Below are positions 6,963 to 7,086 of a stretch of 18,522 nucleotides of DNA, piece by piece (within the stretch, counting starts at the first letter, position 1; each line of letters begins with the position of its first letter). The stretch covers positions 1-18,522 of the forward strand of contig JAUXWS010000073.1 in the NCBI GenBank assembly GCA_030685015.1, in the 5' to 3' direction. The notes under the pieces were generated by a model. The model was given only the letters and a program-made list of their open reading frames with translations. It was not told the DNA's origin and did no database searches. A program made the position numbers and the translations under genes. This DNA is from a bacterium (GTDB lineage Bacteria > CAIWAD01).

Positions 6963-6988
6963 CCCGGTCCCGCGAGGCCCCAAGGGAG
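6963..6988 (+). promoter_or_regulatory. PyrR-binding RNA loop overlapping the leader-peptide ribosome site
   Basis: Bases 6966-6979 read GGUCCCGCGAGGCC as RNA. This matches the published PyrR-binding consensus ARUCCNGNGAGGYU at 12 of 14 positions. The two departures (A to G at the first base, U to C at the last) keep them paired. C69-C70 pair with G76-G77, closing the loop. Outside, CCC (6963-6965) can pair with GGG (6984-6986) across a short bulge. That GGG is the core of the Shine-Dalgarno AAGGGAG (6982-6988) for the leader ORF at 6994, so bound PyrR should hide it. Confidence 0.72.
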
Positions 6989-6993
6989 TCGCC

Positions 6994-7086
6994 ATGAAGA
7001 CCTGCATCCGCCTGACAACCACCGGAGCGCCCTGGGCGCCTCCGGTTTTTTTCATGCCGGTCCGCCGGCGAGAGGAGGGGGCATGA
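6994..7086 (+). CDS. Leader peptide of the pyr operon (30 residues)
   Basis: The 30-codon ORF starts [14 protein letters not shown] and ends RRREEGA. The ATG at 6994 has AAGGGAG 5 bases upstream, a better site than many real genes here. Its TGA (7084-7086) overlaps the pyrR ATG (7083-7085) as ATGA, the same coupling used between pyrR and pyrB. The terminator hairpin at 7022-7052 lies wholly inside it, so a translating ribosome would prevent the hairpin from forming. The peptide has no protein family resemblance; the act of translation is the likely function. In Mycobacterium smegmatis, PyrR is known to repress translation at the first ribosome site of the pyr operon. E. coli pyrL is an analogous leader that controls a terminator. 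Confidence 0.65.
7022..7052 (+). terminator. Intrinsic terminator in the pyr leader (attenuator)
   Basis: CCGGAGCGCC (7022-7031) pairs with GGCGCCTCCGG (7035-7045) with one bulged C and a 3-nt loop, giving about 10 bp of mostly G-C pairs, followed directly by seven T (7046-7052). It is the clearest intrinsic terminator in the window and lies 31 bases before pyrR. It could also end transcripts from the antitoxin gene, but its position within the leader ORF points to attenuation. Confidence 0.82.

Follow-up and report, generated by a model that had tools for sequence, protein, structure and literature searches.

The closest described counterpart of the locus studied here is the pyr attenuator of Thermus, which has the gene order pyrR-pyrB-bbc-pyrC and for which Van de Casteele et al. 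are said to have proposed in 1997, working on Thermus ZO5, that PyrR and a translating ribosome act in place of an antiterminator. In Mycobacterium smegmatis, PyrR-dependent translational repression was reportedly shown by Fields and Switzer in 2007; there the PyrR site covers the ribosome-binding site that comes first in the operon, and the leader holds neither a terminator nor a separate cistron. The PyrR attenuators of Bacillus subtilis (Rfam RF00515) combine a hairpin made of a lower stem, a purine bulge, an upper stem and the hexaloop CNGNGA with a downstream terminator, and they use an antiterminator and no leader open reading frame (ORF). In Escherichia coli pyrL-pyrBI, a ribosome on the leader ORF prevents folding of an intrinsic terminator ahead of the pyrimidine genes, and UTP is sensed by RNA polymerase pausing without PyrR.

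Comparative analysis of a bacterial DNA stretch of 18,522 nucleotides (the window, meaning the whole stretch that was analysed) makes it probable that its pyrR-pyrB-pyrC operon has, as its 5' leader, a Thermus-type attenuator in which PyrR gates translation of a leader peptide. The parts lie between a RES/Xre gene pair and the operon, in the stretch 6955-7086, behind a promoter-like block:

6900-6928, plus strand: promoter-like block, TTGCTC (6900-6905), 17 nt, CATCTT (6923-6928); the hexamers are kept in relatives
6955-6986, plus strand: PyrR-binding hairpin, the single genome match of a covariance model built without the window's family, with pairing and compensatory changes across sites
6982-6988, plus strand: Shine-Dalgarno sequence AAGGGAG of the leader ORF, identified by sequence and by the placement of ATG codons across loci
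6994-7086, plus strand: 30-codon leader ORF that spans the terminator and meets pyrR in an ATGA junction; counterparts in relatives G001 to G003
7021-7052, plus strand: intrinsic terminator inside the leader ORF, with the hairpin at 7021-7046 and the U tract at 7046-7052; present in G001 and G002, absent from G003
7073-7080, plus strand: pyrR Shine-Dalgarno sequence AGGAGGGG, identified by sequence
7083-7655, plus strand: pyrR, matching the curated NCBIfam PyrR equivalog model with 240 bits (cut-off 138) and PyrR of 1non with E 5e-63
7652-8668, plus strand: pyrB, aspartate carbamoyltransferase, NCBIfam 396 bits (cut-off 263), likely start ATG 7652
8658-9956, plus strand: pyrC, dihydroorotase, Pfam Amidohydro_1 above cut-off; dihydroorotase models reach E 1e-99, below their cut-offs

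Several of these elements had been pointed out in an earlier note on this DNA, and the leader ORF, the terminator within it and the overlap of the leader stop (TGA 7084-7086) with the pyrR start (ATG 7083-7085) all lie where that note had put them. Its account of the PyrR-binding element can be refined: the consensus match, GGUCCCGCGAGGCC at 6966-6979, is present, but the strand that pairs with the leader Shine-Dalgarno sequence is the 5' flank CCCUU (6955-6959) and not the consensus itself. In the resulting hairpin, CCCUU pairs with AAGGG (6982-6986), which is at once the 3' strand of the lower stem and part of the Shine-Dalgarno sequence; a bulge (6960-6965) leads to an upper stem of GGUC (6966-6969) and GGCC (6976-6979), only 4 bp long in the window, closed by the hexaloop CCGCGA (6970-6975). 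Lower stem, bulge, upper stem and CNGNGA loop are all found, as in the Bacillus hairpins, and the stem covaries across sites.

In the genome there are 217 copies of the bare core TCCNGNGAGG, against 120 of the reversed control, and the leader ORF, which survives 52% of shuffles without a break, is not significant in the window by itself; given these chance levels, each means little alone. The full site is a different matter. The covariance model R2, trained on 32 sites with the window's family left out, finds one match at E<=10 in the whole 3.6-Mb genome (6956-6987, E=0.14, 24.4 bits), and it locates the same place in G001 to G003. Together with its position beside pyrR, we take this match as decisive. 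In a set of 55 sites that was picked on sequence and took no account of pairing, 53 keep pairs 3 and 4 of the upper stem (42 and 39 when shuffled), and compensatory changes are seen in the stems. The Rfam model RF00515 gave no match in the window at E<=1 or in G001 to G003 at E<=0.1; it matches Bacillus loci, and Thermus and others fall below its threshold (47.5 for the Thermus locus against a gathering threshold of 54). A generic fold of 171 nt gave no signal (z -0.34). In the predicted fold of the unbound RNA, the loop-closing pair of the window hairpin has a probability of 0.001; the hairpin is weak unaided, and the switch would therefore be strongly dependent on PyrR.

The terminator hairpin has a predicted energy of -18.5 kcal/mol and is followed by seven U residues. 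Bacillus-type control would have PyrR free this terminator by preventing an antiterminator, with the leader ORF incidental, and the hairpin is indeed of the Bacillus kind, down to the CCUUU/AAGG strands of the lower stem; the Rfam model, which matches Bacillus loci, also picks up Thermus and others, though below its threshold. Pairing that could compete with the terminator is nevertheless no stronger in the window than in shuffled upstream sequence (z +0.93), with z -0.17 in G002 and a mean of -1.2 in named Firmicutes, by a test that separates the groups weakly; by the same weakly discriminating test, no competition between antiterminator and terminator was seen in the window. Bacillus-type control also leaves unexplained the placement and frame of the leader ATG described below, and we regard it as very unlikely.

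The leader ORF has counterparts in all three close relatives. G002 agrees with the window in its 30-codon leader, its terminator and its ATGA junction with pyrR; G001 has a 21-codon leader that passes through a terminator and stops 19 nt before pyrR, without overlap; and in G003 the leader starts with GTG and ends in ATGA. The conservation that the earlier note had proposed to check in relatives holds for the PyrR site and the leader in G001 to G003, and for the terminator in G001 and G002 but not in G003. The hexamers TTGCNC and CATCTT-like, 17 to 18 nt apart (spacing by eye), are kept in all four aligned family members, although a generic sigma-70 scan did not call the block at 6900-6928; since all four retain them ahead of the hairpin, the transcription start probably lies near 6935 and thus precedes the PyrR site. 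Between G000 and G002 the leader peptides are identical at 15 of 31 positions, the stop counted, and their leaders differ by 9, 10 and 9 substitutions at the three codon positions, a distribution without codon-position bias, and selection on the peptide, also considered, was not seen. What these leaders keep appears to be the open frame and not the peptide, and an unconserved peptide fits a role for translation rather than for its product.

The comparison that makes the case extends to distant loci. A model that includes the window's family detects a PyrR site in 108 genomes out of 386 across the domain; the 155 non-redundant loci comprise 97 not labelled Firmicutes, a loose grouping, and 58 named Firmicutes, and these counts are not independent, some families having been sampled more than once. 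The AAGG anchor is part of the site definition, and pyrR starts are predicted by homology. The genes found under the site elsewhere are pyrR, pyrB, uracil permease and cytosine-type permease (pyrB and the permeases named by reading the sequences), and the presence of pyrB and permease genes supports the identity of the site. Of the 97 loci not labelled Firmicutes, 44 have an ATG at a distance of 7 to 9 nt behind AAGG, against 3.5 expected; by position, 12, 19 and 13 loci have it at 7, 8 and 9 nt, compared with about 1.2 per position farther downstream. Named Firmicutes show no such enrichment (5/58, 3.3 expected) and no frame signal. There are 41 loci with both this ATG and a terminator, and in every one of them the frame set by the ATG stays open as far as the 5' arm of the terminator (the other frames do so in 25 and 23), and in 35 it spans the whole hairpin (20 and 19). 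The result does not hang on the window's family or on Thermus-like loci: with both removed, the frame reaches the terminator in 36 of 36 loci, against 21 and 19. The layout of PyrR site, leader and terminator recurs in dozens of other bacterial families.

These statistics bear directly on the reading in which the PyrR site and the terminator are real and the leader ORF is a non-functional chance neighbor. The shuffle result and the even spread of G000-G002 substitutions would fit such a juxtaposition, but the spacing and frame across loci, together with a leader in all three relatives, GTG-started in one of them, make it extremely improbable. By contrast, the proposal of the earlier note that PyrR would block the leader ribosome site and so let the terminator form is well supported by comparison, that is, by the ATG placement, the frame, the lack of an antiterminator signal in the window and the retention of site, leader and promoter-like block in relatives.

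As a separate observation, locus L178 (G317 C10) has a PyrR site and a terminator ahead of a gene whose sequence resembles that of an HD-domain nucleotidase and not of a pyr gene; it is a possible extra PyrR target.

Across the loci, the leader stops scatter between -156 and +35 nt relative to the predicted start of pyrR, and they peak at the exact 4-nt overlap, which 13 of 64 show. When coupling is defined as a leader stop within -3 to +8 of the predicted pyrR start, 7 of 9 leaders without a terminator are coupled to pyrR, versus 15 of 55 with one (Fisher p 0.006). The window leader has both the terminator and the ATGA junction. The junction between pyrR and pyrB is also ATGA (7652-7655), and with ATGA at both junctions the leader resembles the opening member of a series of coupled cistrons. 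The suggestion of the earlier note that leader and pyrR translation are coupled is accordingly plausible for the window, G002 and G003, but it does not extend to G001 with its early stop.

Pure translational repression resembling that of M. smegmatis, with the leader ribosome site blocked, pyrR affected through stop-start coupling and the terminator weak or irrelevant, would suit G003, which combines a PyrR site, a GTG-started leader and an ATGA junction without a terminator, and it would suit the coupling of most terminator-less leaders. The window leader cistron, however, carries a terminator of the strength given above, terminators are kept in G001 and G002, and pyrR has a Shine-Dalgarno sequence of its own, all of which render this explanation unlikely for the window.

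In six loci (L019, L024, L170, L175, L191 and L201) AAGG serves pyrR itself as the ribosome site. The differing arrangements across loci fit one gated event, ribosome loading, that is wired to different outputs. Whether PyrR governs a single event, ribosome loading on a leader indifferent to its peptide, with evolution wiring it to termination or to stop-start coupling, so that the window uses both in series and relatives can keep one, and whether this is a major, largely unrecorded mode of PyrR action outside Firmicutes, we consider evenly balanced.

Loci L136 and L174 (pyrB) and L161 (uracil permease) have no leader ORF, and AAGG itself is the ribosome site of the gene; their layout reads as a simple translational block.

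For the window we return to the Thermus-type attenuator. The elements are observed, as are the way they are conserved and spaced and the frame of the leader; binding by PyrR, dependence on UMP, termination and coupling are inferred. In this mechanism PyrR would be off the RNA at low UMP/UTP, and a ribosome would bind AAGGGAG. Translating the 30-codon leader through 7021-7052, it would block folding of the terminator, and RNA polymerase would read on into pyrR, pyrB and pyrC. At high UMP, PyrR-UMP would clamp the hairpin and hide the leader Shine-Dalgarno sequence in the lower stem; the leader would be left without a ribosome, the terminator would fold and transcription would stop. On transcripts that escape, loss of leader translation may also lower translation of pyrR, since leader and pyrR overlap at the ATGA. 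The blocking step would be shared with E. coli pyrL, where a coupled ribosome lowers termination in vitro from 21.5% to 9.9% (PMC10135430); in the window it would be PyrR that gates leader initiation.

The earlier note knew of no described example of this combination, a claim that our comparison does not support, since the Thermus layout matches and such a mechanism was reportedly proposed for Thermus in 1997. The Thermus locus, L009, encodes a PyrR with a full-length match to T. thermophilus 1UFR. It has a PyrR hairpin with a CCUUU/AAAGG lower stem and a 28-codon ORF that starts with an ATG 7 nt after AAGG, runs through an intrinsic terminator and overlaps the pyrR start. The window likewise has the leader Shine-Dalgarno sequence within the PyrR stem and an ORF through an intrinsic terminator before pyrR, and it belongs to the kind reportedly described from Thermus. 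It differs in an overlap of 4 nt instead of 11, in a leader peptide unrelated in sequence and in having no bbc between pyrB and pyrC. In the open literature searched we found no description of the combined PyrR site, leader and terminator, nor of comparative evidence this broad, of the dual role of AAGG or of terminator and coupling replacing each other inside a single family.

By comparison of loci from many bacterial families, our results strongly support a mechanism that was reportedly proposed for Thermus in 1997, and they indicate that outside Firmicutes one strand of the PyrR hairpin, the conserved AAGG, also serves as a ribosome-binding site. They also offer an evolutionary series, from direct block of pyrR or pyrB through a coupled leader to a leader with a terminator, which illustrates how one RNA-binding protein can be rewired between translational and transcriptional control.

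Some smaller features of the window deserve mention. A hairpin of CATGCC and GGCATG (7054-7085), seen by eye in G000 and G001 and considered as a structure that hides the pyrR start until the leader ribosome opens it, was rejected: it is not the predicted fold, and its opening cost is no higher than in shuffled controls (z about 0, 34 loci). A predicted pairing in G000 and G001 joins GGGGGC, the 3' part of the pyrR Shine-Dalgarno sequence, to GCTTCC in the first codons of pyrR (7078-7094), and it may favor coupling to the leader. Directly upstream of the pyr operon, a RES-domain protein (5495-6370, plus strand; Pfam RES E 7e-23) is followed by an Xre/MbcA/ParS-type antitoxin-like protein (6432-6881, plus strand), likely a toxin-antitoxin pair. 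Farther along, at 12726-15391 on the minus strand, a poly-gamma-glutamate system protein adjoins a gamma-glutamyltransferase.
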